Source: Sinosporangium siamense (GTDB lineage: Bacteria > Actinomycetota > Actinomycetes > Streptosporangiales > Streptosporangiaceae). From it: a stretch of 64,000 nucleotides of DNA. Location of the stretch: NCBI RefSeq assembly GCF_016863435.1, contig NZ_BOOW01000030.1:124001-188000 (forward strand), in the 5' to 3' direction. The notes under the pieces were generated by a model that was not told the origin of the DNA, did no database searches, and was given only the letters and a program-made list of their open reading frames with translations. Below, one piece after another: positions 1,197 to 26,185 of this stretch (position 1 is its first letter; every line of letters begins with the position of its first letter). A program made the translations under genes and the position numbers.

Positions 1197-1197
1197 C

Positions 1198-6470: not shown

Positions 6471-6528
6471 GCGGCCACACAGAACCCATCAAAAGTTAGG
6501 TTTAGCGAAATTGAGGAAAAAGATGTAC

Positions 6529-7529: not shown

Positions 7530-8177
7530 CTACATGGTTTGAGACCCAGAGTTTCGGGAGCGGAGTTTGGCTACCAGGTTGGCCTTGTGGGTGTAGGCCT
7601 CGTGGAGGGGGGTGCCTTCGCGGAGGGCGTTGACGACTTCCTCCTCGGCGTCGGTATATTCCGTGGCGTCGGTGAGGATTTCGGGGCCCGGCACCGTGAC
7701 GACGCCGCCTCGGTCGACCACCAGGGTGTCGCCGTCGGCGATGAGGACGCCGTTGATGTGGACGGGGGTGCCGACGGCGGCGACGTGGACTCGGGGGCCG
7801 GGGCCGGCGGTGGCCTCGTGGCGGGCCCAGAGGGGGAAGTCGAGGTCGCGGGCGGCGTCGGTGTCGCGGACGCCGCCGTCGATCAGGGCGGCCAGGGCGC
7901 CGGCGTTCTGGGCGGCGCGGGTGAGGATCTCGCCCCAGACGGCGCCTTCGGCGGCGGTGGCGCCGGCGATGACGACGATGCGGCCTTCGAGGTCCTCGTC
8001 CAGGAGGCGGTGGAGGGGTTTGAGGCCCTCTGGGCCGGATCCCGCCGCCAGGGTCACCGTACGAGCCGCGCCGATGACGGCGGGGGTCCGGTGGATGGGC
8101 ACCAGGGGTGGGCTGAGCCATCCCATCAACCCGCGAAGTTGAAGCACATCCGCGATGGCGCTGGTCGGCGGGACCAC
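7530..8177 (-). CDS. RraA/HMG-aldolase family protein
   Basis: This 215-aa protein matches the RraA-like fold, which includes class II 4-hydroxy-4-methyl-2-oxoglutarate/oxaloacetate aldolases. The diagnostic stretch is present: GEILTRAAQNAGALAALIDGGVRD supplies the conserved Gly, the Arg/Asp of GGVRD and the active-site segment, followed by VHINGVLIADGDTLVVDRGGVV. Members near ring-cleavage or hydantoinase genes usually cleave a C4-hydroxy-keto acid to pyruvate or a related product. The GTG start has a GGAGA site nine bases upstream. It is the last gene of the leftward catabolic block, separated from the ligase by 144 bases that contain a tandem repeat. Its exact substrate is unknown. Confidence 0.8.
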   Translation of the reverse strand: MVPPTSAIADVLQLRGLMGWLSPPLVPIHRTPAVIGAARTVTLAAGSGPEGLKPLHRLLDEDLEGRIVVIAGATAAEGAVWGEILTRAAQNAGALAALIDGGVRDTDAARDLDFPLWARHEATAGPGPRVHVAAVGTPVHINGVLIADGDTLVVDRGGVVTVPGPEILTDATEYTDAEEEVVNALREGTPLHEAYTHKANLVAKLRSRNSGSQTM

Positions 8178-8231
8178 GTATTCATCTCCCTTGCTGAGTG
8201 CGGCGGGGCTCGGGGGCCGGTCGTCAACGAG

Positions 8232-8275
8232 GTTGTCAGTGGATGGAGTTGTCAGTGGACGAGGTTGTCAGTGGA
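8232..8275. repeat. Three 12-bp direct repeats with 16-bp period
   Basis: The 12-mer GTTGTCAGTGGA occurs at 8232-8243, 8248-8259 and 8264-8275, exactly 16 bp apart. It sits in the 144-bp gap between the acyl-CoA ligase and the RraA-type gene. It may be a regulator-binding array or a recent slippage product. Confidence 0.8.
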
Positions 8276-8321
8276 CGGGAAATTCAGGTGTTCCCCCCTA
8301 CGGCGGGAGCACGCCTGAAAG

Positions 8322-11407: not shown

Positions 11408-11410
11408 GGC

Positions 11411-13489
11411 TCAGACCTCCCGGGTGGCGATGACGGAGCCGTCGGGCGCGACCTCGCAGGTCCAGCCGTCGGGCACGACGGAGGTGGTCTCCCGCTCCTC
11501 GATGAGGGCGGGCCCGGCGAAACGCGCCCCGGCGGAGAGTTCGGTGCGGCGGTAGACCGGCACGTCGCGCGCCTCCTCACCGCGGCGGAACCGCGCCTTC
11601 CTGGTCGAGTACGGCGAAGCCGTGCCGTCGCCGGGTGCCAGCGCGGGCACCTCGAAGGGCGGCGCGTCGGACCAGGCGGCGACGCGCCAGGTGACCACCT
11701 CGACGTCGAGGGCGGGGATGCGCAAGCCGTACACCCGCTCATATGCCTGGTGGAACAGCTCGACGGTCTCCTCCAGGGTGCCTGGCCAGGAGCCGCCCTC
11801 GCCGGCCCAGACGGTGATCTCGTTGCCCTGTCCGGCGTAGCGGGCGTCGAGGCCGTAGCGGAACTGCACCTTGGCGACGTCGGCGCCTGCCGCGGCGAGC
11901 ACGCGGCGGCCCTCGTCGCGCATCTCGTCGAGCAGCGCGTCGCGGTCGCCCTCGACGCCGGCGCCGAGCACCCGCACCATGCTGCGCGCGAGGTCGATGC
12001 GTACGGGGCTGACGAGGGTGCCGAAGGCCGAGAGCACGCCGGCGTTGACCGGGAAGACGACGCGGGGGGCTTCGAGGAGGGCGGCGACGCCGCAGGCGTG
12101 CACAGGTCCCGCGCCGCCGAAGGCGATGAGGGAGACGCCGCGCAGGTCGATGCCGCGTTCGACGGCGTGCATGCGGGCGGCGGCAGCCATGTTCTGGTTG
12201 ATGACCTCGTAGACGCCGAGGGCGGCCTGGTCGGCGGTGGTTCCCATGCCGCCTGCGAGCGGCAGGAAGGCGGCGCGGGCCCGGTCGAGGTCGAGCGGCA
12301 TCTCGCCGCCGAGGAAGTACGCCGGGTCGAGCAGGCCCATGACGAGGTCGGCGTCGGTGGTGGCGGGGACGGTGCCGCCGCGGGCGTAGGACACCGGGCC
12401 GGGGTCGGCACCGGCGGAGTCGGGGCCGACCTTGAGCAGGCCGAGGTCGTCGATGCGGGCGAGGCTGCCACCGCCGGCGCCGATCTCGACGAGGTCGACC
12501 GACGGCACCGAGCAGGGGTAGCCGGAGCCCTTCTTGAAGCGGTAGACGCGGGCGACCTCGAACTCGTTGGTGAGTTCGGGGCGGTAGTCCTCGATGAGGC
12601 AGGACTTGGCGGTGGTGCCGCCGAGGTCGAAGCAGAACAGGCGGTCCTCGCCGAGCCTGCGGGCATACCAGACGCCGGCCAGCGCGCCGGCCGCCGGGCC
12701 GGACTCGACCAGCCGGATCGGCACCTTGCGGGCGTCGGCTGCGGAGACGACGCCGCCGTTGGAGAGCATCATGAGCACCGACGCGCCGAAGCCCTCGTCG
12801 GCGAGCCAGCGCTCCAGCTCCTCCAGGTATGGGCCGATGACGGGCATGGTGGCCGCGTTGCACGCCGTGGTGATCATGCGTGGATATTCGCGGATCTGCG
12901 GAGTGACCTCGTAGGACGCGCAGACCGGCACGCCGAGGCGCTTGGCGAGGCCCTCGGCCACGGTCTTCTCGTTGGCGGCGTTGGCATAGGAGTTGAGCAG
13001 GCAGACCGCGACGGCTTCCACGCCCGCCATGCGGGCGGCCAGTTCGTCGAGGGCGGCCTCGGCGGGCTCCCGCCGTACCTCGCCGGTGGCCATGACCCGC
13101 TCGTCGAGTTCGAAGACCAGCTCGCGCGGGATGGGCGAGGGGGGATACTCGATCTGCATGTCGTACATGTCGTAGCGGTGCTCGGTGCGGATCTCCAGCG
13201 TGTCGCCGAAGCCCTGGGTGGTGACCAGCGCCGCGCGGCCTGTTTTGCCCTCGATGAGGGCGTTGGTGATGAGTGTCGTGGCGTGCACGATCGGGCGGGT
13301 GATGTCGCCGGGTGCGATGCCCGCCTTGGCGAGCGCGGACATGACACCCTTGCGCACTCCGCCAAGCGGGGCCGAGGGCGTGGTGAGCGTCTTCTCCACC
13401 ACCACGCGGCCGGAGCCGGCGTCCAGCAAAACGATGTCGGTGAAGGTGCCGCCGATGTCGACGGCGAGCCGCCAGTCAGTCTTGTTCAT
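11411..13489 (-). CDS. hyuA: Hydantoinase A/oxoprolinase family subunit (HyuA-like)
   Basis: This 692-aa protein begins with the acetate/sugar-kinase-like nucleotide-binding motif AVDIGGTFTDIVLLD. It continues with the HyuA marks VHATTLITNALIEGKTGR, GFGDTLEIR, a central LSNGGVVSA and CFDLGGTTAKSCLI, the second phosphate motif. Length is typical. With HyuB it couples ATP use to attack on a cyclic amide or ketone. It lies between the aldolase (5-base gap) and HyuB (3-base gap) in the same transcript. The N-terminal start at 13489 matches the family's usual beginning. Confidence 0.9.
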   Translation of the reverse strand: MNKTDWRLAVDIGGTFTDIVLLDAGSGRVVVEKTLTTPSAPLGGVRKGVMSALAKAGIAPGDITRPIVHATTLITNALIEGKTGRAALVTTQGFGDTLEIRTEHRYDMYDMQIEYPPSPIPRELVFELDERVMATGEVRREPAEAALDELAARMAGVEAVAVCLLNSYANAANEKTVAEGLAKRLGVPVCASYEVTPQIREYPRMITTACNAATMPVIGPYLEELERWLADEGFGASVLMMLSNGGVVSAADARKVPIRLVESGPAAGALAGVWYARRLGEDRLFCFDLGGTTAKSCLIEDYRPELTNEFEVARVYRFKKGSGYPCSVPSVDLVEIGAGGGSLARIDDLGLLKVGPDSAGADPGPVSYARGGTVPATTDADLVMGLLDPAYFLGGEMPLDLDRARAAFLPLAGGMGTTADQAALGVYEVINQNMAAAARMHAVERGIDLRGVSLIAFGGAGPVHACGVAALLEAPRVVFPVNAGVLSAFGTLVSPVRIDLARSMVRVLGAGVEGDRDALLDEMRDEGRRVLAAAGADVAKVQFRYGLDARYAGQGNEITVWAGEGGSWPGTLEETVELFHQAYERVYGLRIPALDVEVVTWRVAAWSDAPPFEVPALAPGDGTASPYSTRKARFRRGEEARDVPVYRRTELSAGARFAGPALIEERETTSVVPDGWTCEVAPDGSVIATREV

Positions 13490-13494
13490 CGTCC

Positions 13495-14289
13495 TCAGGC
13501 TCCGTGCACGGCCTCGCGCAGGCGCTCGACCAGAGCGCGCGGCTTCTCAGAGCCCCACACGTTGCGGCCGAACGCCACACCGGCACCGCCCGCCCGCACC
13601 ACGCCGCGGGCGACCGCCACGACATCGTCCTCGGTCTTCATCTTCGGCCCGCCGAGCGCCACCACCGGCACCGGGCACGCCTCGGCGACCTTCGCGAACT
13701 CCTCCGGCGGGCCGGGGCACACCGTCTTGACGACGTCGGCGCCGAGCTCGGCGCCGATGCGGGCGGCGCGGGCGACGTTCTCCGCCGTCCACGGCACGGC
13801 CTGGCCCCAGCCCCCGGGGATCATCTCCGCCATCACCGGCAGGCCGAGCGTCTCGCACTCGGTGACGAGCCGCGCGAGGCGCAGCAGCGATTGGTCCTCG
13901 TCGGGGGCGCCGGGGAACGCCAGCACCACGACGCAGTCCGCGCCGATCTTCAGCGCCTCCTCAGCGCGGTGCATGATCTGGTTGAGGTCGTTCTTCGGCA
14001 TGTCGCCGAGCTCCGACGATCCGCCGTCGACCCGGAGCACCAGGCCCGACCTGGCGAAGACGTCGGCATATGCACGGGCCAGGTGCCAGGTCGCCAAGAT
14101 GGCGTCCGGCTTGCCGGCCGCGATCTCGCGCATCGGCTCACCGAGCGGCGGGCCCTCGCCCATGTAGGCCGCGTGGTCGATCGCCACGAAGACGCTTCGC
14201 CCGTCGGCGCCGAACATGCGGCGCATACGGCGGAGCTTGCCCGCGCCGATCGCGGAATGATGTTGCAAGGCCGAATCCTTTCGAGTCAT
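13495..14289 (-). CDS. DhnA-type class I aldolase (DeoC/FbaB superfamily)
   Basis: This 264-aa TIM-barrel protein resembles DhnA-type class I fructose-bisphosphate aldolases and LsrF/ADH-synthase relatives. The probable Schiff-base lysine is K188 in ELGADVVKTVCPG. The phosphate-binding end, VVALGGPKM then AGGAGVAFGRNVW, is present. Its start overlaps the SnoaL-like gene by 4 bases and its end is 5 bases before HyuA, so it belongs to the catabolic operon rather than to glycolysis. It probably makes or breaks a C-C bond in a keto-sugar-like or hydroxy-keto intermediate. The exact reaction is unknown. Confidence 0.8.
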   Translation of the reverse strand: MTRKDSALQHHSAIGAGKLRRMRRMFGADGRSVFVAIDHAAYMGEGPPLGEPMREIAAGKPDAILATWHLARAYADVFARSGLVLRVDGGSSELGDMPKNDLNQIMHRAEEALKIGADCVVVLAFPGAPDEDQSLLRLARLVTECETLGLPVMAEMIPGGWGQAVPWTAENVARAARIGAELGADVVKTVCPGPPEEFAKVAEACPVPVVALGGPKMKTEDDVVAVARGVVRAGGAGVAFGRNVWGSEKPRALVERLREAVHGA

Positions 14290-14675
14290 TCGTGGGAAGA
14301 GGAGACCTGGCGGGCGAACTCCGCACCGTCCCAGTAGTCGACCCGGTGCGAGATCAGACCGCCGTCGACCGTGAAGCGGAACATCCCCCGGATCACGATG
14401 GGTTTGCCGTGATAGATACAGCTCATGCGATATGGCACCGCCGCCCGTGCGCGGTCCACCAGCATGTCCTCGATCTCATAGGTCAGCTCGGCGAACTCCG
14501 CCAGAAAGCCGGTGAGCCGCTCGCGATATGCCTCTCTGCCACGCAGGGAGACCCCCGCGGCGGAGGTGTGCTCGTTGTGGAAGCCGGGGGTCACACAGGC
14601 GGCGATCAGGTCGGGGTCGTGGCGGTTGAGCGCGTCGATGTAGCGCTCAACCACCACGTGTACCGGACTGTTCAT
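14286..14675 (-). CDS. SnoaL-like/NTF2-fold protein
   Basis: This 129-aa protein has the NTF2-like cone fold pattern of SnoaL-type ester cyclases and hydratases: an N-terminal helix (VERYIDALNRHD), FHNEHTSAAG, RGREAYRERL and a C-terminal IRGMFRFTVDGGLISHRVDYWD strand pair. Such proteins act as small isomerases, cyclases or dehydratases, and sometimes as binding partners. It overlaps the aldolase start by 4 bases and follows the VOC gene by 5 bases. In this operon a role on a ring-opened or hydroxylated intermediate is reasonable, but no catalytic residue can be assigned with confidence. Confidence 0.72.
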   Translation of the reverse strand: MNSPVHVVVERYIDALNRHDPDLIAACVTPGFHNEHTSAAGVSLRGREAYRERLTGFLAEFAELTYEIEDMLVDRARAAVPYRMSCIYHGKPIVIRGMFRFTVDGGLISHRVDYWDGAEFARQVSSSHE

Positions 14676-14680
14676 CCCGG

Positions 14681-15133
14681 TCAGCCGGCCCAGAGAGTGC
14701 GGACCTCTTCGAAGACCTTCTGATTGTGGGAGATCTCCACGACGTTGCCGTCGGGATCCTTAAGCGCGCAGATATAGCCCACCGGCGGCGGCAGCTCCAT
14801 CGGCTCCCAGTGCAGGCAGCCCATCTCGCGCGCCTCTGCGGCGATGCGGTCCACGTCCTCGCGGTTCGGCACCTCCATGCCGAGGTGGGCGAAAGGCGTG
14901 AGCTGGGGCTGCTTCTTGCCCTTGTCCTTGGCGAACTCCACCAGGACAAGGACGAACGGCGTCTCCACCTGCTTGTCATTGGACAACCAGACGTTCCGCC
15001 CGTCCTTGTCCTCGTGGGTCGACACCACGACCAGGGGGGTCATCGTGGTGTAGAACTCGATCGCCGCGTCGATGTCGCAGCAGGGCAGCGCGACGTGCGT
15101 CCACCGGGCCTCGGTCAGCTTCTTCTCAAGCAT
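14681..15133 (-). CDS. VOC-family (glyoxalase/extradiol dioxygenase-fold) protein
   Basis: This 150-aa protein has the paired beta-alpha-beta-beta-beta modules of the vicinal oxygen chelate superfamily. The first module starts with TEARWTHVALPCCDIDAAIEFYTTM. The second has PFAHLGMEVPNREDVDRIAAEA and ends with ALKDPDGNVVEISHNQ, the usual site of the metal-ligand Glu. Two metal-ligand histidines are plausible (THVAL and FAHLG). A GAGGA site precedes the ATG. Next to a Rieske oxygenase it could be a ring-cleavage dioxygenase, isomerase or lyase. A single VOC unit of this length is too short for the two-domain extradiol dioxygenases. Confidence 0.8.
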   Translation of the reverse strand: MLEKKLTEARWTHVALPCCDIDAAIEFYTTMTPLVVVSTHEDKDGRNVWLSNDKQVETPFVLVLVEFAKDKGKKQPQLTPFAHLGMEVPNREDVDRIAAEAREMGCLHWEPMELPPPVGYICALKDPDGNVVEISHNQKVFEEVRTLWAG

Positions 15134-15175
15134 TGATCCGTCCTCTTTCTGGCTGTCGACCGGCTTCAGTTGGCT

Positions 15176-16492
15176 TCAGTCCTTATCGACGGGACCGTCG
15201 AACTCGTCCGGGTCGAGGGGCGTCGCCACGTCCCGGCGGATGAGCCGCATCATGTGATGTGCCCTTCCCTCCCAAGTGCTCGGCGGACCCACCCGATAGA
15301 AAGGTGACCGAAGGTTCTCCATCAGCTGGGTCACCATGTCGGTGTCTTCCTTGTTGGTCAGCTCCAGGCCGTCGAGTTCGCGATTCTGCAGCTCAAGGTC
15401 ATCGCTGAGGCCGTAGATCCGGGAGAAGAGCCGTGATCTGTCCGGCGCGATCGGGTCCACCCGCACCAGGATCAACTGCGAGGCGTACGGCAGAGGCGTC
15501 AAGTTGGGGTAGACGAACTCGGCGTAGCTGCCGCGCAGATCCTCTTCGCTCAGGTCCGTGCGCCCGGCCGACATGTCGAAGTTCGCAGAATGCGGCTTGT
15601 AGCCGCTCGTCGTGCGGCCCTCGAAGCGCACGATGGTGTCCATCTGCTTGCGCACCTTGTTGAGCCTGCGGTGCACGAAACGCACGTGGTAGTCGTCGTT
15701 GGAGTTCTCGACGAACGCCTTCCAGTTGATCGGGAAGGTCTCGTCCAGCTCACGGTGATAGCGCTTGAAGGTGTGGATCTTGTACTTCTCGTAGCGGGGC
15801 AGGAGTGGAGCGATCCAATCCTCGAACTGCGGAGCCTTCCGCGACAGGCAGCCGAACACCAGCTTGCCGAACGCCACCTTCACCCGGATCGGGACCAGGC
15901 CGTAGTCCTCCTTCGGGAAGTCCGGCCCGTACATCCGGTCCATGTCCGGAATGCTCAGCAGCCGCCCGTCCAGCCCGTAGGTCCACGCGTGATAGGGGCA
16001 GGCCAGCGCCTTGCAGTGCCCGGCGGGTTTGAACGCCAGCCCGGCGGCGCGGTGGCGGCAGTTGTTGAGGAAGCCTTTGAGGGAGCCGTCCTCCTGCCGG
16101 ATCACGACCACCGGCTGCGCGCCGATGTTCCCCGTGATGTAGTCACCGGTCTTCTGGAGGTCCTCGGTGTCGCCAAGCCAGACCCAGGACCGGCCGAAGA
16201 CCCGGACCATTTCAAGATCGAAGAGGTCCTTGTCCCAGACCTCCCACGGTTGCAACATGTCACTGGGCAAAGGCGGATCGACCAGGCCCCGGGACTCGCG
16301 TTCCCATTCGCCCTGTCGCCGGACGACCCTTTCGTGCAGGGCCTGCTCCGCGGTGTGGTCGGCGAGCAAGAGGTGCCTCCTGTCCTGCTCATGGGGGTGA
16401 CGCCGTTGCCAGGACGCTATGTCCGGGTTGTCGGCGCCCTCCATGTGCCCGCCGCACAAAAAGCGACGTGTGCCACTGCCCCCGGGCCACAT
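15176..16492 (-). CDS. Rieske non-haem iron oxygenase, alpha subunit
   Basis: The Rieske [2Fe-2S] ligands are C145-x-H147 and C165-x2-H168 (NNCRHRAAG, ACPYHAW). The catalytic domain has the mononuclear iron motif NSNDDYHVRFVH, with H269 and H274 and a bridging Asp just before. Length is normal for ring-hydroxylating or demethylating oxygenase alpha subunits. It would hydroxylate an aromatic or N-methylated substrate, and it needs a reductase and ferredoxin that are not in this window. The longest frame starts at 16492; an ATG at 16444 (MEGADNP) is an equally possible start. It lies between the Lrp-type regulator and the VOC gene on the same strand. Confidence 0.9.
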   Translation of the reverse strand: MWPGGSGTRRFLCGGHMEGADNPDIASWQRRHPHEQDRRHLLLADHTAEQALHERVVRRQGEWERESRGLVDPPLPSDMLQPWEVWDKDLFDLEMVRVFGRSWVWLGDTEDLQKTGDYITGNIGAQPVVVIRQEDGSLKGFLNNCRHRAAGLAFKPAGHCKALACPYHAWTYGLDGRLLSIPDMDRMYGPDFPKEDYGLVPIRVKVAFGKLVFGCLSRKAPQFEDWIAPLLPRYEKYKIHTFKRYHRELDETFPINWKAFVENSNDDYHVRFVHRRLNKVRKQMDTIVRFEGRTTSGYKPHSANFDMSAGRTDLSEEDLRGSYAEFVYPNLTPLPYASQLILVRVDPIAPDRSRLFSRIYGLSDDLELQNRELDGLELTNKEDTDMVTQLMENLRSPFYRVGPPSTWEGRAHHMMRLIRRDVATPLDPDEFDGPVDKD

Positions 16493-16556
16493 CGGTGCCG
16501 GGCCCGCCCTGTGGCAGGGTCGAGCCCGGGAGCAGGTGCCGCGGCCGGGCCCGGGA

Positions 16557-17045
16557 TCAGGTGCCGGGCCAGGCGAACCTGTGGGTGTGGATCCCGAAGT
16601 AGGTGAACGCCTCGGCCCGGGTGACCCCCGGCACCCGCTTGATGTGGTCGTTAAGGATCTTCAGCAGCTCGGCCGGCTCCTTGCAGACCACCTCGACGAA
16701 GAGATCGAACGACCCCGACGTGAGCACCACGTAGATCACGCCCGGCAACTCGCTGACCCGGTCGGCGATCGCGTGCACGTCGTCGTCGACCCGCAACCCG
16801 ATCAGCGCCATGAAGGGCAGCCCGAGCGCCATCGGATCGGTCACTCCGACGATCTGGACGACACCCTCGTCACGCAGCCTTTGCACGCGTTGCCGTACGG
16901 CGGGAGCCGACAGGCCGGTGGCCTCGGCCAGCGCGGTGTAGGAGACCCGGCCGTCCTGCTGCAACTCCCGCAGCAGAATGCGGTCGACGTCGTCGACGTT
17001 CACGTTGTTCTGATCCGGCGTCCTCATTCGGTCCGGCTTTCTCAT
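16557..17045 (-). CDS. Lrp/AsnC-family transcription regulator
   Basis: An N-terminal helix-turn-helix (DDVDRILLRELQQDGRVSYTALAEATGLSAPAVRQRVQRL) is followed by a RAM/AsnC ligand-binding domain (LIGLRVDDD, LPGVIYVVLTSGSFDLFVEVV). At 162 aa it is the usual size. The start at 17045 was chosen because its ATGA overlaps the aminotransferase stop by 4 bases; a longer frame exists upstream but would overlap that gene deeply. It is probably the local regulator of the aminotransferase/Rieske/HyuAB block. A perfect inverted repeat in front of the operon is a candidate binding site. Confidence 0.9.
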   Translation of the reverse strand: MRKPDRMRTPDQNNVNVDDVDRILLRELQQDGRVSYTALAEATGLSAPAVRQRVQRLRDEGVVQIVGVTDPMALGLPFMALIGLRVDDDVHAIADRVSELPGVIYVVLTSGSFDLFVEVVCKEPAELLKILNDHIKRVPGVTRAEAFTYFGIHTHRFAWPGT

Positions 17046-18397
17046 CCGGCCAGTTCGGCGACCGCGGCAGCGAACACCTCGTGGTGGAGGTCCACGTCGT
17101 TCGTGGTCGTGTCCGGGCACATCAGCGCCATGTTGTGGAACGGCGTGAGCAGCACCCCACGGTTGGCCAGATAGACGTGCAGGTAGTCGTCGAGATCGGC
17201 GTCATTGGCCGCGTTGGACTCCCCGCCGGTGCGCGGCGCCGGGCTGGCGAAACGGTATTCGGCCCTGGCCCCGAGCTGGGTGACCGACCACGGCAGGGAG
17301 TAGCGGTCGATAACGTCCTGCACGCCCTTGGTGAAGTGGGTGGCCAGCTCCGTCATCCGTGCGAACGCGTCGTCGGTGAGCACATGCTCCAGCGTGGCCC
17401 GCATCGCCGCGACCGACAACGCGTTGCCCGCGAGGGTGCCGCCGACGCCGCCCATGTCGACCAGGTCGAGCCCGCTCATCCCCTCGACCTGGGCCGCCAC
17501 CTCGGCCGACAGTCCGTAACCGCCGCTCGGGATGCCGCCGCCGATCGCCTTCCCGATCGTCACGATGTCCGGCGAGAGCCCCCACGCCCCCGTACACCCG
17601 CCCGGGCCGGCGGAGAAGGTGTGGGTCTCGTCGTTGATGAGCAGCGTGCCGTATTTCTCGGTGAGCCGCCGGACCCCTTCGAGGTAGCCCGCCTCCGGCA
17701 GCACGATGCCGATGTTGGTCAGCGCCGGCTCCATGAGCACGGCGGCCACGTCGCCGTATGCCAGCTCGCGCTCCAGCGCGGCCAGATCGTTGAACTCCAC
17801 GACCCTCGAGGTGACCGTCGGGTCGACGGGAGCTCCGACGTTCCCCTCCCGCGAGACCTGCTCCCCGTCCGCGCCCACCACGATGAGCACCTCGTCGACA
17901 CTGCCGTGGTAGCAGTAGCTGTTGACGAGGATCTTGGGCCGCCCCGTGATCGCCCGCGCCAGCCTGATGGCCCACCGGTTGGCGTCGGTGGCGGTCAGCG
18001 AGAAACTCCAGTACGGCAGGCCGAAGCGCCGCCCGAGCTCCTCCCCCACCCAGCCCGCGTCCTCAGTCGGCATCATGACCGTGGCGCCTCCGAGCTCCCC
18101 GAACCGCCTGCCGACGGCCGCCACCGTCGCCGCGGGCGAGTGGCCCGCCATGGCTCCCGTGTCCCCCAGGCAGAGATCCACGTATTCGTGCCCGTCGACG
18201 TCGGTGACCCTGGCCCCCTTCGCAGTGGCCAGGTAGAGGGGGAACCCGGCTGCGGTCTTGTTCATCCAGGTCATTGGCACCCCGCCGAACAGGTGGCCCC
18301 GGGCGGCCTCGTAGGCGGCGGCCGACCGCGGGTTCCGGGCCCGGAAGGAGCCACGCTCCCGGTCGAGAAGCACAGCGAGACGTGAACGGTCGATCAT
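17042..18397 (-). CDS. Class III PLP aminotransferase (GSA-aminomutase-like)
   Basis: This 451-aa fold-type I PLP enzyme has D256 in LLINDETHTF and the PLP-binding lysine K283 in DIVTIGKAIGGGIPSGGYG. The substrate-channel and PLP-phosphate segments SLTATDANRWAIRLAR and YCYHGSVDEVL are also visible. The closest broad group is glutamate-1-semialdehyde aminotransferase-like transaminases. The usual SGTEA motif reads LTATDA here, a conspicuous change around the phosphate loop. It would move an amino group to or from an amino acid, or a beta- or omega-amino acid. It is the first gene of the block and is translationally coupled to the Lrp-type regulator. Confidence 0.87.
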   Translation of the reverse strand: MIDRSRLAVLLDRERGSFRARNPRSAAAYEAARGHLFGGVPMTWMNKTAAGFPLYLATAKGARVTDVDGHEYVDLCLGDTGAMAGHSPAATVAAVGRRFGELGGATVMMPTEDAGWVGEELGRRFGLPYWSFSLTATDANRWAIRLARAITGRPKILVNSYCYHGSVDEVLIVVGADGEQVSREGNVGAPVDPTVTSRVVEFNDLAALERELAYGDVAAVLMEPALTNIGIVLPEAGYLEGVRRLTEKYGTLLINDETHTFSAGPGGCTGAWGLSPDIVTIGKAIGGGIPSGGYGLSAEVAAQVEGMSGLDLVDMGGVGGTLAGNALSVAAMRATLEHVLTDDAFARMTELATHFTKGVQDVIDRYSLPWSVTQLGARAEYRFASPAPRTGGESNAANDADLDDYLHVYLANRGVLLTPFHNMALMCPDTTTNDVDLHHEVFAAAVAELAG

Positions 18398-18574: not shown

Positions 18575-19783
18575 CTAGGCACCCGCGGCGGCAATGGCCC
18601 GTCGGGCGACAGGCGGCACCAGGGCGCCGGCAATTAGGAAGATCACCCCGATGAGCACCCAGCCCGCCTGCCCCCAGCCGATGACGGCGGCGACGAGCAG
18701 GGCGGGCGCCAGGAGGTCGGCCAGTTGGTAGCCCATGCCGTACACGCCCTGATAGGTCCCGATCGAGCGGGCGGGCGCGAGCTCGTAGGAGAGGCCCCAC
18801 GAGCCGGCCGCCTGGAACAACTCCCCCGCGACGTGCGCGGATGCGCCCGCCACGAGGACAACCACCGCGACCCATGAGGAAAGGCCCGTGGACAGGGCGA
18901 ACAACAGGCACGACATCAGGAGGAACCATCCCGAACGCCGCTGGGCACGTGCGGCCCCCACGACGCTCTCGCTGCCCCGGCTCAGCGGGACTTGAAGCAT
19001 GGTGACGGCCACGGTGTTGAACATGATCAGCAGCGCGACCACGGCGGCGGGCGCGCTGGTGCGCTGCACCACCCACAGCGGGAGCGCGACGGTCAGCAGC
19101 CCGCCGTGGAGCGACAGGGCGGCGTTCAGCAAGGTGATGGTGATGTACGGCCGGTCGCGCAGGACGAGCCGGATCGGCCCGTCGTCCGGCTTCCCCGCGG
19201 CCTCCACCGGCGGAACCCTCAGGATGAGCAGCGCGCCTGCCAGGTAGCAGACCGAGCAGCCGAGCATCATCCCCAGGTAGACCGCGCGGCCCTGATGGTG
19301 GAGCGCGAAGGCCGCCCCCAGCCCGCCGAGCGAGAGGCCCACGTTGGTGACCGCGCGGAGATAGGCCCTGACCTGCACCCGCCTCTCGTGCGGGAGCGCC
19401 ACGCCGATCAGGGCACTGCGGGCCGTCTGCTCCGCGGCGGCCGTGAAGGTCGTCAGCGTGGTCACCAGCACGAACGCGGCCAGGCCGTCGACGACGACAT
19501 AGCCGCAGGTCAGCAGGGAGGTGGCGACGGAGAAAAGCAGGGTGACGCCGCGCGGCCCGCGCAGGTCGGACAGCCGCCCCGCCGCGAGCCCGCCGAGGAA
19601 ACCGAAGACCGCGGCGAACGACAGGCCGAAGCCCACCTCCATCGCGGAGAGCCCGACCGGTCCGGTGAAGTAGATCACGCTGACCGGCAGGAACATGCCG
19701 CGGCCGATCGTTCTGAAGGCGGTGGACCATGTGAGCGCTGCCACTGTGCCCGGCGCCGGTAGGAACGCGGTGAGGACCCCCAT
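18575..19783 (-). CDS. MFS transporter, probable product exporter
   Basis: This protein of about 402 residues has 12 predicted membrane helices. The MFS A-like motif GRLSDLRGPRGVTLL lies between helices 2 and 3. The central loop after helix 6 (VPPVEAAGKPDDGPIRLVLRDRP) is typical. The start at 19783 was chosen over one at 19831 because it has a strong GGGGAGGA site about ten bases upstream and does not overlap the kinase gene. It is the last gene of the seven-gene operon that begins with the radical SAM gene, so the natural inference is export of the product or a precursor. Confidence 0.85.
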   Translation of the reverse strand: MGVLTAFLPAPGTVAALTWSTAFRTIGRGMFLPVSVIYFTGPVGLSAMEVGFGLSFAAVFGFLGGLAAGRLSDLRGPRGVTLLFSVATSLLTCGYVVVDGLAAFVLVTTLTTFTAAAEQTARSALIGVALPHERRVQVRAYLRAVTNVGLSLGGLGAAFALHHQGRAVYLGMMLGCSVCYLAGALLILRVPPVEAAGKPDDGPIRLVLRDRPYITITLLNAALSLHGGLLTVALPLWVVQRTSAPAAVVALLIMFNTVAVTMLQVPLSRGSESVVGAARAQRRSGWFLLMSCLLFALSTGLSSWVAVVVLVAGASAHVAGELFQAAGSWGLSYELAPARSIGTYQGVYGMGYQLADLLAPALLVAAVIGWGQAGWVLIGVIFLIAGALVPPVARRAIAAAGA

Positions 19784-19803
19784 GGTGGAGGGTCCTCCCC
19801 TTG

Positions 19804-20787
19804 TCAGCGGCAGAGAACCTTCCGGCACCAATTCAGTCCGGCGGTGCCCCGTTCGACGAGTTCCCGGTCGGCGAACTCGTCGGTGCCGAGCAAGCCGAGG
19901 AGCGCGTAGGTGTCCGCGGCATAGGCGGCGACGACGTCGTCCGGGGGAAGTGGGGTGTCAATGCCGCGATATCCGGCGAGAAGGGGTGGCTTCAGCAGTC
20001 CGTAAGCCTGCATTCTGCCCAGCTCGGCGGCGGGGTCGCCCATGGTGCAGTTGGAGAGGTCGATGACCGCGGCGAGTTCGTCGCCCCGGTAGCAGAGATT
20101 TTCCTGCCGCAGGTCCATGTGCAGGAGCCGGAGCGGCGCCGACACGGCACGCTCCGCGATGACCGCGGTCGCGGCCTCGACGAGCGTCCGGTGGTCCTTG
20201 ACGTCGGCACGGCTCGCCAGGGCGGACACGCGCGTCTCGACGCGCCGGATCATCTGGTCGGGCCGGCATTCGGCCCCGACCGCCGCCTGCGCGGAGCCGG
20301 GCGGGTCGATCTCGTGGATGCGCCTGAGCACACCTCCGAGCCGCTCAAGCTGGGCGTCGTTCAGGTCTGCCGCCCCGTCGTTGTCGACGAAGCCCAGCAG
20401 CATCCACGAGCGCCGCCCCGCGCCGTCGGCCCGCCGCCACCCGCGCAGCGGCGCCATGGGAACGCCCGCCTCGGCCAGGACGCGGTGCGCCGCGGCCTCC
20501 CGCTCGAGCACCGCGCCGAAGTCGACCGTGCCGTCGTAGGCGGAGGGCGCGATCTCGCGCAGCGGGACGCGGAGCACGAGCCTTTCGCCCGCGCCCGTCT
20601 CGACGCGGAGGGCGGCGTAGTCGGCGCCCCGCCGCCAGGCGGACACGCGACTGCCCGCCGGAAGCACGTCCGCGAGTTGCGCCGCCATCTGCCGCGCGAG
20701 CTCGTCCTCGTCGGGTATCTCGATGCTTTGCAGCAGCGGCGCCCTCTCGGTGAGCTCGGCCTGCTCATGGGGGTCGGCACCGGTCAC
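19804..20787 (-). CDS. Aminoglycoside-phosphotransferase-like kinase
   Basis: This 327-aa protein has the APH/choline-kinase catalytic signature. The Brenner motif is HMDLRQEN (H223, D225, N230) and the metal-binding Asp is in AVIDLSNCTMGD (D243). The N-lobe strands (YAALRVETGAGERLVLRVP) are recognisable. The GTG start at 20787 gives a 4-base GTGA overlap with the acyltransferase stop; a longer frame runs upstream but overlaps that gene by 200 bases. Family members phosphorylate hydroxyl groups of antibiotics, sugars or amino acids. Here it could be a biosynthetic step, or self-protection by phosphorylating the product, with MFS export next. Which of these applies is not shown. Confidence 0.8.
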   Translation of the reverse strand: MTGADPHEQAELTERAPLLQSIEIPDEDELARQMAAQLADVLPAGSRVSAWRRGADYAALRVETGAGERLVLRVPLREIAPSAYDGTVDFGAVLEREAAAHRVLAEAGVPMAPLRGWRRADGAGRRSWMLLGFVDNDGAADLNDAQLERLGGVLRRIHEIDPPGSAQAAVGAECRPDQMIRRVETRVSALASRADVKDHRTLVEAATAVIAERAVSAPLRLLHMDLRQENLCYRGDELAAVIDLSNCTMGDPAAELGRMQAYGLLKPPLLAGYRGIDTPLPPDDVVAAYAADTYALLGLLGTDEFADRELVERGTAGLNWCRKVLCR

Positions 20788-21809
20788 GTCGTCGACAGCA
20801 GTGCTCCTTGGAGTGGGCGGATGCGGCATCCGCGCCGGACTTTGGCCTCGATCGCGGCACCACCATAGTCGATGCGCTCGCACGCGGTGGAGCGGAGCGC
20901 CAGGTCGATCATCGTGTAGTAGGTGGCCTCGAAGTATCCAAAACCCTCCCTGCCCGTGAAGCCCGCCAGCTTGGGAATCAGCCACTCCCCTTCCTCCACG
21001 GCGAGCACGTGCCCGATCGCCTCGGCGCCGTCCCGCAGGACCGTGACGTGATGCAGCCGTCCCGCGTAATCCTTCTGCAGGGCGAGGAACTGGCCGGCCA
21101 CCCGCTCCCGATCGGCCTCAAGGCCGTGCCTGCGGTAGTGGGCGACCTGCCGCTCAAGGAGCGCCGGGGTGATCGGCACCTCGCCCGCCACCTCGACGCT
21201 GAGCCCCGCTGCCGTGAAGGCGCGGCGTTCGCGCGCCGTCTCCCGTTTGCGTTTCGCGGGGAGTGTGGCGAGATAGTCGTCGAAGGTGGATATCCGGCGG
21301 AGGTCGAGGTAAGCGGAGTCACTCATGGGGAACAGCGCGCCCTCCTCCGCGACCTCCTCCCGCAGCCACCCGGGCGCCGGATCCGCGATGTGCGGAAACA
21401 GCAGGGTGGTGGCGCCGGCATCCGCGGCCCGGCGGCGCAGCTCCGCGACCAGCGCGCGTACGGCGAAGCCGGCCTCGCGTGCGGCCACGCCGCAGGCGAC
21501 GTGCAGGCCGGACACGTAGGAGCTCGGGGCGACCACGACGAGGGACGGCTCCGCGGAGCGGCAGCCGGGCTGCAGGTTGGAGAGCCGGTATTTCGTGTGG
21601 TGGTCGGTGTCGAACCGCACGTGGAACACCGCCGCTGCCGCCGGCCGCCCGCCCACGTAGGCGATCGCGTATTCGCTCGGGCGATCGAACGACGCCGCGT
21701 GGCAGGTGAGCCACCTCGCGGAGAGCTGCGGCGGCCCGCCTGCCACGGCGCTCGCCCAGTCCGCCGAGTCGGGCACGGCGCCCGCGACGTGAATCTCGGT
21801 CTGCCGCAC
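20784..21809 (-). CDS. BioF2/FemAB-like GNAT-fold N-acyltransferase
   Basis: This 341-aa protein resembles the predicted N-acyltransferases of COG3146 and the BioF2-like GNAT_6 group. There is a first degenerate acyltransferase half, a linker with LPAKRKRETARERRAFTAAGLSVEV, the usual R-rich helix of this group, and a second half ending in GFGYFEATYYTMIDLALRSTACERIDYGG. FemAB-type members add amino acids from tRNA; BioF2-like members use acyl-CoA or similar donors. It lies 7 bases after the peptidase-like gene. In this operon it probably forms an amide or peptide bond to an amino-acid core. Donor and acceptor are unknown. Confidence 0.7.
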   Translation of the reverse strand: MRQTEIHVAGAVPDSADWASAVAGGPPQLSARWLTCHAASFDRPSEYAIAYVGGRPAAAAVFHVRFDTDHHTKYRLSNLQPGCRSAEPSLVVVAPSSYVSGLHVACGVAAREAGFAVRALVAELRRRAADAGATTLLFPHIADPAPGWLREEVAEEGALFPMSDSAYLDLRRISTFDDYLATLPAKRKRETARERRAFTAAGLSVEVAGEVPITPALLERQVAHYRRHGLEADRERVAGQFLALQKDYAGRLHHVTVLRDGAEAIGHVLAVEEGEWLIPKLAGFTGREGFGYFEATYYTMIDLALRSTACERIDYGGAAIEAKVRRGCRIRPLQGALLSTT

Positions 21810-21816
21810 TGAACCC

Positions 21817-22428
21817 CTAATCGGTGGTCACGTCGGTGACGTTCGGCGTGGTGGTGCGGCTCAGCGGATATTCCCCGGGGAGCCGCGTCCCCGCCAGGAG
21901 GGCCTGGATCTCCGGCTCCGCGAGGCCGACGCTCACGCTGCCGGTCTCGCTCGCGCCCCTTCTCCTGAGAAACGAGTCGGCGACGGCGTGCACGGCCGCG
22001 CGTGCCTCCGGCGTGGCCAGGTCGGCGACGAGCAGGCGGAACACGTCGACGATCTCCCATTCGATCGAGTCCTGGCTCGGGTCGTGGCGCTGCAGGGCGA
22101 GCCACTCCTGGGCGTGCTGGAAGTCGATCGTGCCCGTTATGGAGAGGACGTCCGAAAGGGAGATCTCCCCCGCCGCCGCGGCGGCGAACCCTCCGGCGGC
22201 CAGCTCGGCGGCGCCGCCGGCGAGGGCGGCGGCCACCTGCCCGGCGATGCTCCGGGTCTTCTCCGCGGCCGACCGCCAGTCCCCGCCGGACGTCGTCCTC
22301 GTGTAGGTGAAGCCCCGGTCCGACCACACGCTCTCTCTGACCGTCACCGCCGACTGGGCCCATCCGACCAGCAGATGGCCCGCCTCGTGAATCGCCAGCG
22401 CCTCCCGCTTGCGGAGTTCCCGCTTCAC
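21817..22428 (-). CDS. Small FtsH-peptidase-like (M41) zinc-metalloprotease domain protein
   Basis: From a GTG at 22428, which overlaps the upstream gene by 4 bases (GTGA), the 203-aa protein starts almost directly with the M41 motif ALAIHEAGHLLVGW (H14, E15, H18). The matching third-ligand region, LSDVLSITGTIDFQHAQEWLA, resembles FtsH's G-A-x-N-D-x(2)-A-T segment and supplies an Asp. There is no AAA+ ATPase module and no membrane anchor, which every true FtsH has. It is therefore a free-standing peptidase domain. In a biosynthetic operon it may process a peptide precursor or a carrier-protein adduct, or it may be a repurposed fold. Confidence 0.72.
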   Translation of the reverse strand: MKRELRKREALAIHEAGHLLVGWAQSAVTVRESVWSDRGFTYTRTTSGGDWRSAAEKTRSIAGQVAAALAGGAAELAAGGFAAAAAGEISLSDVLSITGTIDFQHAQEWLALQRHDPSQDSIEWEIVDVFRLLVADLATPEARAAVHAVADSFLRRRGASETGSVSVGLAEPEIQALLAGTRLPGEYPLSRTTTPNVTDVTTD

Positions 22429-23486
22429 CTGGCGCCTCCCACCCGGGCGAAACCCTGGTCCCACTCCTGGGCCAGCCAGGCCTCGTATTCGGCGCCGGCC
22501 GGTTTGTCGACGACGATGCACACGGGGCATATCCGGCGGTCCCTGGCCGAGAAGGCGGCGTGCATCTGGGAGAGGTTGTTGCCGATGAGGACATCGCCAA
22601 GGCCGCCGGTCACCGTACTCTCGAAGTGCCTGCGCATTTCCGGCCATGAGAGGCCGAGCGTCTCGTAGGACTGGTGGCAGATGAGCCGGGCGCCCGGCCC
22701 CTCACAGGAGGCGCAGGGGCAGGACTCCACCATTTCCCAGATCCCCGGGATGGACGCGTATTGGTCCGGCCAGAGCTCGCTTTCCGCCCTTGGGCCGCTG
22801 GGCAGGACGTGGTGGGCGGGGTCGGGTGAGCCGAGGAGTGAGCCGAGGTTCAGGTAGCGCGAGTGGTGCACGTCGCTCAGCTCCATCGAGCGGGCGATGT
22901 TGTCGCCGAGGAACTCCTCGACCTCGCGGCTGGAACTCGGCGCTCTCCCGTTCTTGTGTTTGTAGGCCGCGACGAGCAGGGCGATCAGGCTGTAGTAGTA
23001 GGTCTCCCCTGGGAAAGCGCCCGGGTTGGTGATGAGGAAGCCCTGGTACATCTTGTGGGACGGCCGCTTGAAATAGACCGTGTTGGAGAACACCCGGTCG
23101 TCTGTGACGCCGTGCCGGTCGTTGATCCGCCGGGGGGTCAGAAAGCTCGCGTGGGCGCCGTCCTGGTGCGGCAGGAGGAAGCGTGACCGGGCCCGCGGCG
23201 CGGTCGGTGTGCCGTAGCTCTCCTCGTCCACCTCGACATAGGCGTCGCGGGGCAGCAGGTGCTCCCGCTGCATGGCCCCGCAGACGCCGAGCAGCACCGC
23301 GTGGGCCCGGCGGATCAGCTCCGCGGTGGGCGGAGCCGGCCCGTCCCCCGCCAGTTGGAGCGTCACCGACCCGCCGCCCGCCAGATGCCCGGCGGCCTCC
23401 CCAACCCACGGGGCCGCCGGCGTGCCGGAGTACCAGTCCTCGGGCACCGCCACCGTGATCACGGCGATCCTGTGGTCGTCGGACAT
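22425..23486 (-). CDS. Fe(II)/2-oxoglutarate-dependent oxygenase-like protein (TauD/CAS-like)
   Basis: This 353-aa protein has the two halves of the facial-triad motif of TauD/clavaminate-synthase-like oxygenases. HxD is at H107/D109 (LLPHQDGAH). The distal His is H309 in GDVLIGNNLSQMHAAF, matching the family pattern GD-x-x-x-x-x-N-x-x-x-x-H. This is a motif-level call; overall similarity to named enzymes is not obvious. An unusual insert before the distal motif is Cys-rich (CPCASC, residues 256-261, then C270 and CPVC near 320-323) and could bind a metal. It starts three bases after the ureohydrolase stop, so oxidation and guanidine removal may act on the same compound. Confidence 0.55.
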   Translation of the reverse strand: MSDDHRIAVITVAVPEDWYSGTPAAPWVGEAAGHLAGGGSVTLQLAGDGPAPPTAELIRRAHAVLLGVCGAMQREHLLPRDAYVEVDEESYGTPTAPRARSRFLLPHQDGAHASFLTPRRINDRHGVTDDRVFSNTVYFKRPSHKMYQGFLITNPGAFPGETYYYSLIALLVAAYKHKNGRAPSSSREVEEFLGDNIARSMELSDVHHSRYLNLGSLLGSPDPAHHVLPSGPRAESELWPDQYASIPGIWEMVESCPCASCEGPGARLICHQSYETLGLSWPEMRRHFESTVTGGLGDVLIGNNLSQMHAAFSARDRRICPVCIVVDKPAGAEYEAWLAQEWDQGFARVGGAR

Positions 23487-23489
23487 GCG

Positions 23490-24539
23490 TCACCCTCCCT
23501 GGAGACGGAAGATCGCGTCGAACAGAAGCCTGGCCGCGATCTGCGGAGTGCGCCCCGTCGGATCGAGTCTGGGCGCGACCTCGGCCATGTCGAACGCTCC
23601 GATCGGCAGGCGGTGCAGGAGCTCCCACACGTCGAGCAGAGCGCCGCCGGTCAGCCCGCCGAGCGTGACGTTCCCTGTGCCCGGGGCCACCGAGCAGTCC
23701 AGGACGTCGATGTCGACGGACAGGTAGACGACGTCGCAGCGCTCTCCCAGTTGGTCGACGAGCGCCTCCACCTTCTCGGCGCCGCCTCGCAGGTCGGCCG
23801 ACGACACGACCGAGAATCCCCGATCGACGAGGTGGCCGAGCTGTTTTCGCCGCGTCACGTCGCCCACTCCGACGAACGCGATGTTCTCCGGCCGCATGCC
23901 AGGCAGCTCGGAGACCCGGCGTGAATTGGAGCCGTGGTAGATCGGCCCGTGCAGACTGCTGGTGTCGCCGAAGTCGAAGTGGTGATCGAGGTTGACGAAC
24001 CCGATCCGCTCCGGCGGAACGGTTTCCCGCCTGCTCAGATAGAAGCCGGTGAAAGTGCCGATGGTGCAAGAGTGGTCCCCCACCAGGAAGATCCCGCGCC
24101 GCCCGCCGCCCAGAAGCTCCCGCACGCCCGCCGCCACCGACGCCGTGGTCGCCATCGGATCACTGGGGAAGACCGTGAGGTCCCCGGCGTCGACGACCGA
24201 AGGGTTCCCGTACTCGAAATCCCTGCCGGTGCGCATGTCCGTCATCGGCTCGACCGCACGGGTGGACAGCCCGCTCGCGTAGATGAGACTCGCGGCCCGG
24301 ACCGCCCGCGGCCCCTCGGCCGCCCCCGGGCGCGAACTCGTGGTCCCGTCGAAAGGAACCCCCGCCGCCACCCAGAGAGCCGGGTCCAAGGGGAGCAGAC
24401 TCCAGTCGGTCCTGAGCTCGGCGCCGAACAGCGTGGGCACCCCGGCCCACCCGGGGGCACCCACGTCACGGGGCCGGGCCGCCTCGGCCGCCTTGAGGAG
24501 GAGCGACGGATCAAACGACGAGCCGCCCGCGTCAGGCAT
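23490..24539 (-). CDS. Ureohydrolase (arginase/agmatinase family)
   Basis: This 349-aa protein keeps all metal ligands of the binuclear-Mn ureohydrolases: H156 (LVGDHSCTIG), D185/H187/D189 (NLDHHFDF) and D276/D278 (SVDIDVLD). The Pro that usually follows the last motif is replaced by Cys. An active enzyme is expected, removing urea (or a similar leaving group) from a guanidino or amidino substrate. The ~45-residue N-terminal extension is longer than in arginase. It overlaps the radical SAM gene by 8 bases. Family members in secondary metabolism include proclavaminate amidinohydrolase. No beta-lactam synthetase is present, so a clavam product is not implied. Confidence 0.85.
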   Translation of the reverse strand: MPDAGGSSFDPSLLLKAAEAARPRDVGAPGWAGVPTLFGAELRTDWSLLPLDPALWVAAGVPFDGTTSSRPGAAEGPRAVRAASLIYASGLSTRAVEPMTDMRTGRDFEYGNPSVVDAGDLTVFPSDPMATTASVAAGVRELLGGGRRGIFLVGDHSCTIGTFTGFYLSRRETVPPERIGFVNLDHHFDFGDTSSLHGPIYHGSNSRRVSELPGMRPENIAFVGVGDVTRRKQLGHLVDRGFSVVSSADLRGGAEKVEALVDQLGERCDVVYLSVDIDVLDCSVAPGTGNVTLGGLTGGALLDVWELLHRLPIGAFDMAEVAPRLDPTGRTPQIAARLLFDAIFRLQGG

Positions 24540-25836
24540 GCCGGCTCGCGACGAGTCCGGTCATCAATTCCACCTTTTCCAAGAATAGTCTCCAGCTTCG
24601 TTCGGGCGTGAGATGGAAAGGAGTGAAGACCACGGGCGCGTCCTCTCGCCACTGCGAGAAGTCCCAATTGAAGATGCGGGGCTTCAGGGCCGGGAAATCC
24701 GGAACCAAGGGATAGGGCACGAAGTTATATAGATTGGCGAGCCAGATGAGGTCCGCGCACTTCTCCAGCCAACCCATCGTCTCGCTGTGGGCCCGCTCCG
24801 TCTCATAAGCGAGCCCGCCCATGAGATTGAGCACCACACGCATGCCCTGCCCGTCGATCGCCGCCAATCTGTCCCGATAGTGGTCGAGCCCCCGGGAGAG
24901 TTTCCCCATGCTTCTGAGCATCTCGGTGTCCGCCGACTCAAACCCGAGCTCCACCGCCATGACCCCGAGCTCCGCCATGGCATTCAGTACGCTTTGATTG
25001 ACCGCCAGCACGTGGGTCTGCACGATGAACCGATATCCAGGCCGATCCCGGAAGACGTCCAGCAGATTCCGCACGGCCTCCTTGGACTGCCCGAACGTCT
25101 TGTCCCCGATGTAGACCAGCTTCGTCTCGGGAAAGAGCGCCGCGAACTGATCCACCTCCCGCTTGAGCGCCTCCACGTCCACCAGCGTGAGCTGCCTGCT
25201 CCAGGCGTCCCCGCAGAAACCGCACTTGTAGAGGCACCCGTGGCTCGCGTTGAGCCGCAGCAGCGGCACGTGCCCCGAATATCCGGTGAGATGCCGATAC
25301 GAAGGCGCCCACGTGATCCGTCGCGCACTCACCCCGGCCCGGCTCGCGATCGAGAACACCCTGTCCGTCCCAGGCCGCAGCGCGTCCCGCAACTGCTCGA
25401 CCCCCACCTGCCCCCGGACCACCCTGCTCGTGTCGCCGGGGGTGGCCAGCCCCGCCATGTTCCCCCCGAGGACGGTGACCCGCCCCGCCGCCTTGAGTGC
25501 CCGGCTGACCGTGAGCGCGAGGTCGAAGTTCTGCGCCAGCGGACTGATGAGCACCGCGTCCCCGGGCGAGCTGACCTCGGTCAACCTCGACAGACACTCA
25601 TCCGCGGACCGCGCGGAACTGAGATCGGCGAAGGAGGACTCGACACCGAGCTCGTCCAGGATCGCCGTGATGTGGGCGACCCAGAGAGGCATCTCCCACA
25701 GTCGCTCCGCCGGAATGAAGAACTCCGGAAAATCGCGGGCGAACTCCTTTTCGTAGAGCTTGTAGTATTCGACCAGATCGGGCTGCGGCTCACTGGTCGA
25801 GGGAAACGGTAGCTGCACAATATGGGTTACGGACAA
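24532..25836 (-). CDS. Radical SAM enzyme with N-terminal B12-binding-like domain
   Basis: Residues ~1-165 have the Rossmann-like layout of the cobalamin-binding domain that precedes many radical SAM enzymes, but the DxHxxG cobalamin-ligand motif is not seen. The radical SAM core starts at about 190 with C201-x3-C205-x2-C208 (SHGCLYKCGFCGD), followed by the usual barrel strands (LVYIGDKTFG, GVMAVELGFES). The arrangement resembles class B methylthiotransferase-like or B12-dependent enzymes, at the standard size of about 430 aa. It is the first gene of the seven-gene operon, so it probably performs the defining radical step. The reaction cannot be assigned. Confidence 0.85.
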   Translation of the reverse strand: MSVTHIVQLPFPSTSEPQPDLVEYYKLYEKEFARDFPEFFIPAERLWEMPLWVAHITAILDELGVESSFADLSSARSADECLSRLTEVSSPGDAVLISPLAQNFDLALTVSRALKAAGRVTVLGGNMAGLATPGDTSRVVRGQVGVEQLRDALRPGTDRVFSIASRAGVSARRITWAPSYRHLTGYSGHVPLLRLNASHGCLYKCGFCGDAWSRQLTLVDVEALKREVDQFAALFPETKLVYIGDKTFGQSKEAVRNLLDVFRDRPGYRFIVQTHVLAVNQSVLNAMAELGVMAVELGFESADTEMLRSMGKLSRGLDHYRDRLAAIDGQGMRVVLNLMGGLAYETERAHSETMGWLEKCADLIWLANLYNFVPYPLVPDFPALKPRIFNWDFSQWREDAPVVFTPFHLTPERSWRLFLEKVELMTGLVASRHA

Positions 25837-26185
25837 CGGCGTTCTCCGTAGGAGCGATGCTCCCGGTCGACGGACGAACTGCTGTGTTTACCCGGCAGCC
25901 CTCTTCTGAGGACCGCTACCTCTTTCGGTGGTGCCGATCTGCTCACAACGCCACATAGGCATGGTTATCCCAGTGTCACAACAAGTCAAGGAGCGGCACA
26001 GTTGCGGTCAGCCATCTATTACCTCCGCAAAGGCGTCTCCCCATGACCGCTGACCGCCAAGCCGTCTGAGCGCCCACGCCGACCCCTTTCAGGCCAGGCC
26101 GAAAGGTCACCGGACTCCATGAAAAAGGCCAGGCGATATGCCCTACCATCGGAGACACCTTTGAGCGGACCTCTCGCGTGGCCGG
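25837..26185. other. Promoter region of the radical SAM operon and 3' end of TetR gene
   Basis: This 349-base gap has no supported gene. On the minus strand a TTGACT hexamer (25984-25989) is followed, with about 15-17 bases spacing, by an AT-rich stretch near 25961-25970 that could be a -10, about 125-150 bases before the radical SAM start. A dyad, GACCCCTTTC/GAAAGGTC at 26081-26108, lies 78 bases beyond the TetR stop and may terminate that transcript, though it lacks a T-run. Confidence 0.35.

Follow-up and report, generated by a model that had tools for sequence, protein, structure and literature searches.

A rare seven-gene operon of Sinosporangium siamense, built around an oxygenase-like family that lacks a Pfam model, as a candidate pathway for a guanidine-derived metabolite

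We analysed a 64,000-nucleotide (nt) stretch of the Sinosporangium siamense genome (contig NZ_BOOW01000030.1, positions 124,001 to 188,000; hereafter the window), in which a minus-strand run of seven open reading frames (ORFs), from 25836 to 18575, had been proposed from the letters alone to form a biosynthetic operon. All seven ORFs are present at these coordinates. Pfam searches agreed with the families named in this original prediction for five of them (radical SAM, ureohydrolase, FemAB-like, APH and MFS). The operon comprises the following genes:

24532..25836, minus strand: gene 1, radical S-adenosylmethionine (SAM) protein, 434 amino acids (aa), TTG start
23490..24539, minus strand: gene 2, ureohydrolase of the arginase/agmatinase superfamily, 349 aa, PF00491
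22425..23486, minus strand: gene 3, probable Fe(II)/2-oxoglutarate (Fe/2OG) oxygenase without a Pfam model, called from its AlphaFold2 model and motifs
21817..22428, minus strand: gene 4, stand-alone protein of FtsH/M41 fold, about 203 aa, called from its AlphaFold2 model and VIA-align
20784..21809, minus strand: gene 5, FemAB-like/GNAT-fold acyl- or aminoacyltransferase, 341 aa, PF04339
19804..20787, minus strand: gene 6, APH-family small-molecule kinase, Pfam APH
18575..19783, minus strand: gene 7, MFS transporter, probable exporter, Pfam MFS_1

The genes are as tightly packed as had been claimed. Read from the sequence, gene 1 overlaps gene 2 by 8 nt, the junctions between genes 3 and 4 and between genes 5 and 6 are 4-nt overlaps (GTGA in each case), and gaps of 3 and 7 nt separate gene 2 from gene 3 and gene 4 from gene 5. 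The 20-nt gap between the kinase and transporter genes holds GGGGAGGA, a ribosome-binding-like stretch. Pfam found no adenylation, carrier or ketosynthase domain in the seven proteins, in line with the predicted absence of non-ribosomal peptide synthetase (NRPS) and polyketide synthase (PKS) genes.

A gene 3 scan of about 85,000 species genomes, whose reach was limited to close relatives, returned three further loci, so that the neighbourhood as a whole proved to recur. Streptosporangium carneum keeps all seven genes in the same order, with identities of 76, 78, 74, 60, 60, 71 and 70% for genes 1 to 7, Umezawaea endophytica has six of the seven, and the alphaproteobacterium Labrenzia sp. OB1 has five (radical SAM, arginase, APH, gene 3 and gene 4), with the kinase gene relocated between the arginase gene and gene 3. 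Since the FemAB-like and MFS genes are both missing from Labrenzia, and the MFS gene also from Umezawaea, these five genes form the core of the system. The synteny spans four genera and two phyla, and among the loci we found no shared flanking genes, save domain-level matches to common families (AMP-binding, ABC, formyltransferase). The operon therefore behaves as a unit, with its ends where they had originally been placed, that has moved as a unit, and horizontal mobility is part of our best explanation of its distribution. Genes 1 to 3 are evenly conserved (76/78/74% in S. carneum, 69/72/68% in Umezawaea, 47/48/47% in Labrenzia), as would fit consecutive enzymes in one pathway.

The system is also rare. 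Within the order, gene 3 occurs in 4 of 347 genomes, two of which carry merely distant relatives at 35% identity, and gene 4 in 2 of 299 sampled genomes, both times inside this operon. No gene 3 was detected beyond the own genome among 395 genomes sampled from the class and 296 from the phylum, and plasmids and viral contigs yielded no relatives.

Gene 1 matches Radical_SAM in Pfam (5.9e-12), and the cysteines of its CxxxCxxC cluster (C201, C205 and C208) are invariant in four species. Its N-terminal domain is degenerate and B12-binding-like (Pfam B12-binding 0.046, below cut-off), and the cobalamin-binding DxHxxG motif is absent from the alignment. Since some B12 enzymes lack this motif, gene 1 may still use B12. 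Its top NCBIfam matches are PhpK-like (55 bits) and ApyD (52 bits), whose cut-offs of 600 and 750 lie far above. The only PADLOC matches on the operon are weak, among them one of gene 1 to the candidate PDC-M51A. Distant relatives of gene 1 (loci L020-L023) lie in neighbourhoods unrelated to the operon. Two of them, at 26-28% identity (L020 of genome G020, about 1127-10292, and L022 of genome G270, about 8962-15685), stand near very large WD40-repeat proteins, in one case additionally with a NACHT protein, and may belong to a signalling or defence arrangement of their own. Another (L021 of genome G050, 1474-4783) directly follows a gene for a CmlA-type diiron hydroxylase, with an ABC transporter nearby.

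Gene 2 has a single Pfam match, Arginase (PF00491, 4.9e-55). Its manganese motifs GDHS, DHHFD and DIDVLD are invariant, as are all six ligands (H156, D185, H187, D189, D276 and D278). The nearest solved structures are an agmatinase (1wog), a guanidinobutyrase (3nio) and proclavaminate amidinohydrolase (1gq6), and because these relatives with different substrates score alike, the substrate of gene 2 cannot be named. The genome holds five PF00491 matches, gene 2 and four others, which suggests that gene 2 is not the sole housekeeping copy. We also considered membership in the peptide-arginase family pfam12640, whose defining motif is EEHxE (PMC12703449), and rejected it, the sole Pfam match being PF00491.

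Gene 3 has no family match in Pfam, NCBIfam or PADLOC, and its profile found no real match among the PDB sequences. Foldseek placed its AlphaFold2 model closest to TauD-type Fe/2OG oxygenases (top E 0.018). Moreover, H107-x-D109, H309 and R317 (HxD...H...R) lie at TauD-type positions and are conserved in the four operon copies and in a distant relative (L010), and the best local hhalign alignment with TauD pairs the expected C-terminal His and Arg. All 50 entries listed by VIA-align are Fe/2OG enzymes, including the arginine hydroxylases VioC and CmnC, OrfP, clavaminate synthase and TauD; their Z of about 8, however, is the level at which the tool warns that a match may reflect merely a common arrangement, and this counts against the assignment. 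So do the moderate confidence of the model (predicted local distance difference test 62.5, from four sequences) and an hhalign score against TauD no better than that of unrelated controls (E 0.54). On balance, we consider the double-stranded beta-helix fold of Fe/2OG oxygenases probable from the model. At the level of sequence, gene 3 merely resembles the TauD superfamily and, with no Pfam match and this hhalign result, is not filed in PF02668. The earlier label "2-oxoglutarate-oxygenase-like" is thus upheld by remote model matches and the motif, and not by significant profile similarity to TauD. The protein also carries an added set of conserved cysteines (C256, C258, C261 and C270), which could form a zinc site.

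Two genomes of the same family of bacteria (G003 and G005) carry gene 3 relatives at 35% identity that adjoin an APH gene, with FemAB-like, MFS and methyltransferase genes nearby and, in G005, additionally a HAD hydrolase and a BTAD regulator. These distant clusters have neither the arginase nor the radical SAM gene. Gene 3 and the APH gene are adjacent in Labrenzia as well. From this pairing in distant clusters, gene 3 and the APH kinase would form the oldest link of the system, which suggests, without proving it, that hydroxylation is followed by phosphorylation. In a third gene 3 relative, held by G003 (L012, 8744-9706), D109 and H309 are gone, and with them the HxD motif and the last His. 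This copy seems to be in decay, and its surroundings include an NRPS-type condensation/carrier protein and an MFS gene.

Gene 4 matches the M41 family below threshold (Pfam, E 0.007). Its model (predicted local distance difference test 84) aligns in VIA-align with FtsH protease domains at Z 14, over 165 residues at 3.6 A, and the next unrelated row scores Z 3.5, so that the FtsH/M41 fold predicted from the model is clear. The protein has no AAA+ domain. Its zinc motif is HEAGH in the three actinobacteria and REAAH in Labrenzia, and D102, at the third-ligand position by comparison with FtsH, is invariant. The change in Labrenzia makes peptidase activity doubtful and implies that catalysis is not a conserved function. 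Given its translational coupling to gene 3, its position behind that gene in each of the four loci and the loss of the zinc motif in Labrenzia, gene 4 more likely serves as a binding partner of gene 3, although it may act as a peptidase in actinobacteria. Of the "stand-alone M41-like peptidase" first described, the fold and the stand-alone state hold, and the peptidase role is in doubt.

The remaining genes are easier to place. Gene 5 matches FemAB_like (PF04339, 4.3e-14, above cut-off) and is present in three of the four loci. FemAB_like is the proper label for it, and the "BioF2" half of the earlier name has weak support (Acetyltransf_6, E 0.19). In Labrenzia, a 391-aa protein encoded directly upstream of the radical SAM gene (L009, 5424-6599), with no Pfam match above cut-off, has a stretch that by eye resembles the GNAT acetyl-CoA motif, and may be a replacement for the FemAB-like protein. 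Gene 6 (Pfam APH, 5.3e-19) retains the catalytic HxDxxxxN motif and the metal-binding D251, with H231, D233, N238 and D251 invariant in five species. Gene 7 (MFS_1, 1.3e-22) has an orthologue in S. carneum only, at 70% identity.

Downstream, on the same strand, the window encodes a class-III aminotransferase (PRK07046-type), an AsnC/Lrp-like regulator (recognised by eye), a Rieske oxygenase and a glyoxalase-fold protein (14681-18397). This group is not conserved together with the operon. The aminotransferase was considered as a pathway member and rejected, because the other loci have no conserved copy.

Considering these results, we lean towards reading the operon as a cryptic pathway whose product would be a small metabolite of neither ribosomal nor NRPS origin, derived from an amino acid or amine that, like arginine, bears a guanidine group. 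The radical SAM enzyme would remodel the carbon skeleton, for example by C-C bond formation, methylation or rearrangement, and gene 3 would hydroxylate the side chain. The ureohydrolase would take off the guanidine as urea to leave an ornithine- or putrescine-like amine. The APH kinase would phosphorylate the new hydroxyl, either on-pathway or as self-protection, the FemAB-like enzyme would add an acyl or aminoacyl group, and the MFS protein would export the product. The pairing of a 2OG oxygenase with an amidinohydrolase is used in clavulanic acid biosynthesis. In our best reading, the product would be a deguanidinated, hydroxylated and probably phosphorylated and acylated amino-acid compound that is neither NRPS- nor PKS-made. 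A more specific version, for which we can make only a tentative case, is that the guanidine-derived product represents a new class, and that a new cysteine-bearing Fe/2OG family and a repurposed, sometimes catalytically dead M41 domain together hydroxylate the substrate of a dedicated APH kinase.

The gene content, order and conservation of the operon are observed, as are the intact manganese motifs of the arginase, Fe-S motif of the radical SAM protein and catalytic motifs of the kinase. It weighs against the proposed pathway that its chemistry and product are what we infer from these genes, that the radical SAM, APH and FemAB superfamilies each cover too many reactions to point to a particular one, and that Labrenzia does without the FemAB-like and MFS genes. 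Of the genes behind the compound originally proposed, guanidine-derived, acylated, possibly phosphorylated and exported, those for acylation and export are not universal. The guanidine origin agrees with the intact ureohydrolase motifs in the operon and need not hold for every relative, because the distant gene 3 clusters have no arginase or radical SAM gene.

A first alternative is a ribosomally synthesised and post-translationally modified peptide (RiPP) of the biphenomycin or landornamide type. A short precursor, unannotated or unlinked, would be cross-linked or modified by the radical SAM enzyme, gene 2 would convert Arg to Orn, gene 3 would hydroxylate, the M41-like protein would trim and the MFS protein would export. 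The statement that the operon has no RiPP cyclase and matches no known pathway had left such a set unweighed. This reading had to be tested, since biphenomycin biosynthesis combines the same kinds of enzymes, namely the MFS protein BipB, the arginase BipC, the B12-type radical SAM enzyme BipD, the 2OG hydroxylase BipG and the metallopeptidase BipI (PMC12707348). In addition, one of the top NCBIfam matches of gene 1 is ApyD, a RiPP radical SAM enzyme. However, the linked non-coding stretches of the four loci held no conserved precursor-like small ORF, and shared peptide words did not exceed shuffled controls, a result that speaks against a biphenomycin-like RiPP. The best short match (ALRRL...GDAFAE, between window 26008-26088 and L007) was rejected as a precursor, being antisense to a gene in L007 and absent elsewhere. 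Further points against a RiPP are that gene 2 belongs to PF00491 and not to the peptide arginases, that another gene abuts the radical SAM gene in Labrenzia, where the M41 zinc motif is broken, and that Pfam and NCBIfam searches of the operon gave no match to a multinuclear non-heme iron-dependent oxidative enzyme (MNIO) or a TldD peptidase, nor was there a match to a RiPP recognition element or PqqD. Based on these findings, we regard a RiPP, which would then have an unlinked precursor, as unlikely.

Somewhat less likely still is a catabolic or detoxification operon, in which an unusual guanidino compound is taken up or expelled, oxidised, freed of its guanidine and inactivated by phosphorylation or acylation. 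APH, GNAT/FemAB-like and MFS proteins are also common parts of resistance systems, ureohydrolases are usually catabolic, and the genome holds several PF00491 proteins. However, synthesis better explains a radical SAM protein of a B12-like biosynthetic group and the presence of a dedicated FemAB-like gene, nitrogen-catabolism genes do not travel with the operon, and its extreme rarity fits secondary metabolism. Finally, an accidental run of mobile genes, which the variable content might suggest (Labrenzia without FemAB-like and MFS genes, its kinase gene moved), is very improbable given the order kept in S. carneum at 60-78% identity and the five-gene set common to two phyla with unshared flanks.

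We therefore return to the biosynthetic pathway for a guanidine-derived metabolite. A literature search, with most subscription journals outside its coverage, found no published matching pathway, so that the original view of an unknown pathway is supported, not proven, and its status is provisional. If our reading is correct, a small pathway without NRPS, PKS or RiPP marker, which standard cluster finders could overlook, is conserved between actinobacteria and an alphaproteobacterium. The locus would also contribute an oxygenase-like family that neither Pfam nor NCBIfam models, and an M41 fold that stands alone in what looks like a biosynthetic role. Gene 3 together with APH could be used as a probe to mine genomes for related clusters like those of G003 and G005.

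Compared with known systems, the operon arranges familiar enzyme superfamilies in a new way, around a core family that has no model. Gene 1 shares a radical SAM domain and an N-terminal B12-like domain with the B12-type enzymes AprD4, PhpK and ApyD, of which AprD4 (6fd2) is its closest solved structure, but it scores far under the cut-offs of these families (about 37-55 bits against 500-750) and lacks their cobalamin motif. Gene 4 has the fold of the FtsH/M41 zinc peptidase domain and, in its actinobacterial copies, the HEAGH motif; unlike FtsH it stands alone without an AAA+ domain, and the His lost in Labrenzia is reminiscent of the proteolytically inactive FtsHi. The clusters of G003 and G005 (L010 and L011) share the gene 3 relative beside APH, with FemAB-like and MFS genes nearby, and have methyltransferase, HAD hydrolase and BTAD regulator genes instead of radical SAM, arginase and M41. 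The closest characterised enzyme set is the biphenomycin (bip) cluster, which likewise unites an arginase, a B12-type radical SAM enzyme, a 2OG hydroxylase, a metallopeptidase and an MFS protein in one operon (PMC12707348). The bip cluster has a precursor peptide, an MNIO, a pfam12640 arginase and a TldD peptidase (PMC12707348), whereas the operon, in which no precursor was found, has a PF00491 arginase and an M41 fold, plus FemAB-like and APH genes. With the clavulanic acid pair of clavaminate synthase and proclavaminate amidinohydrolase, the operon has in common an Fe/2OG oxygenase of TauD/VioC-like fold, as predicted for gene 3, and an amidinohydrolase of arginase fold. In contrast to that pathway, the operon has no beta-lactam synthetase or carboxyethylarginine synthase, it adds radical SAM, APH, FemAB-like and M41-fold genes, and its gene 3 is so distant that no family model reaches it.

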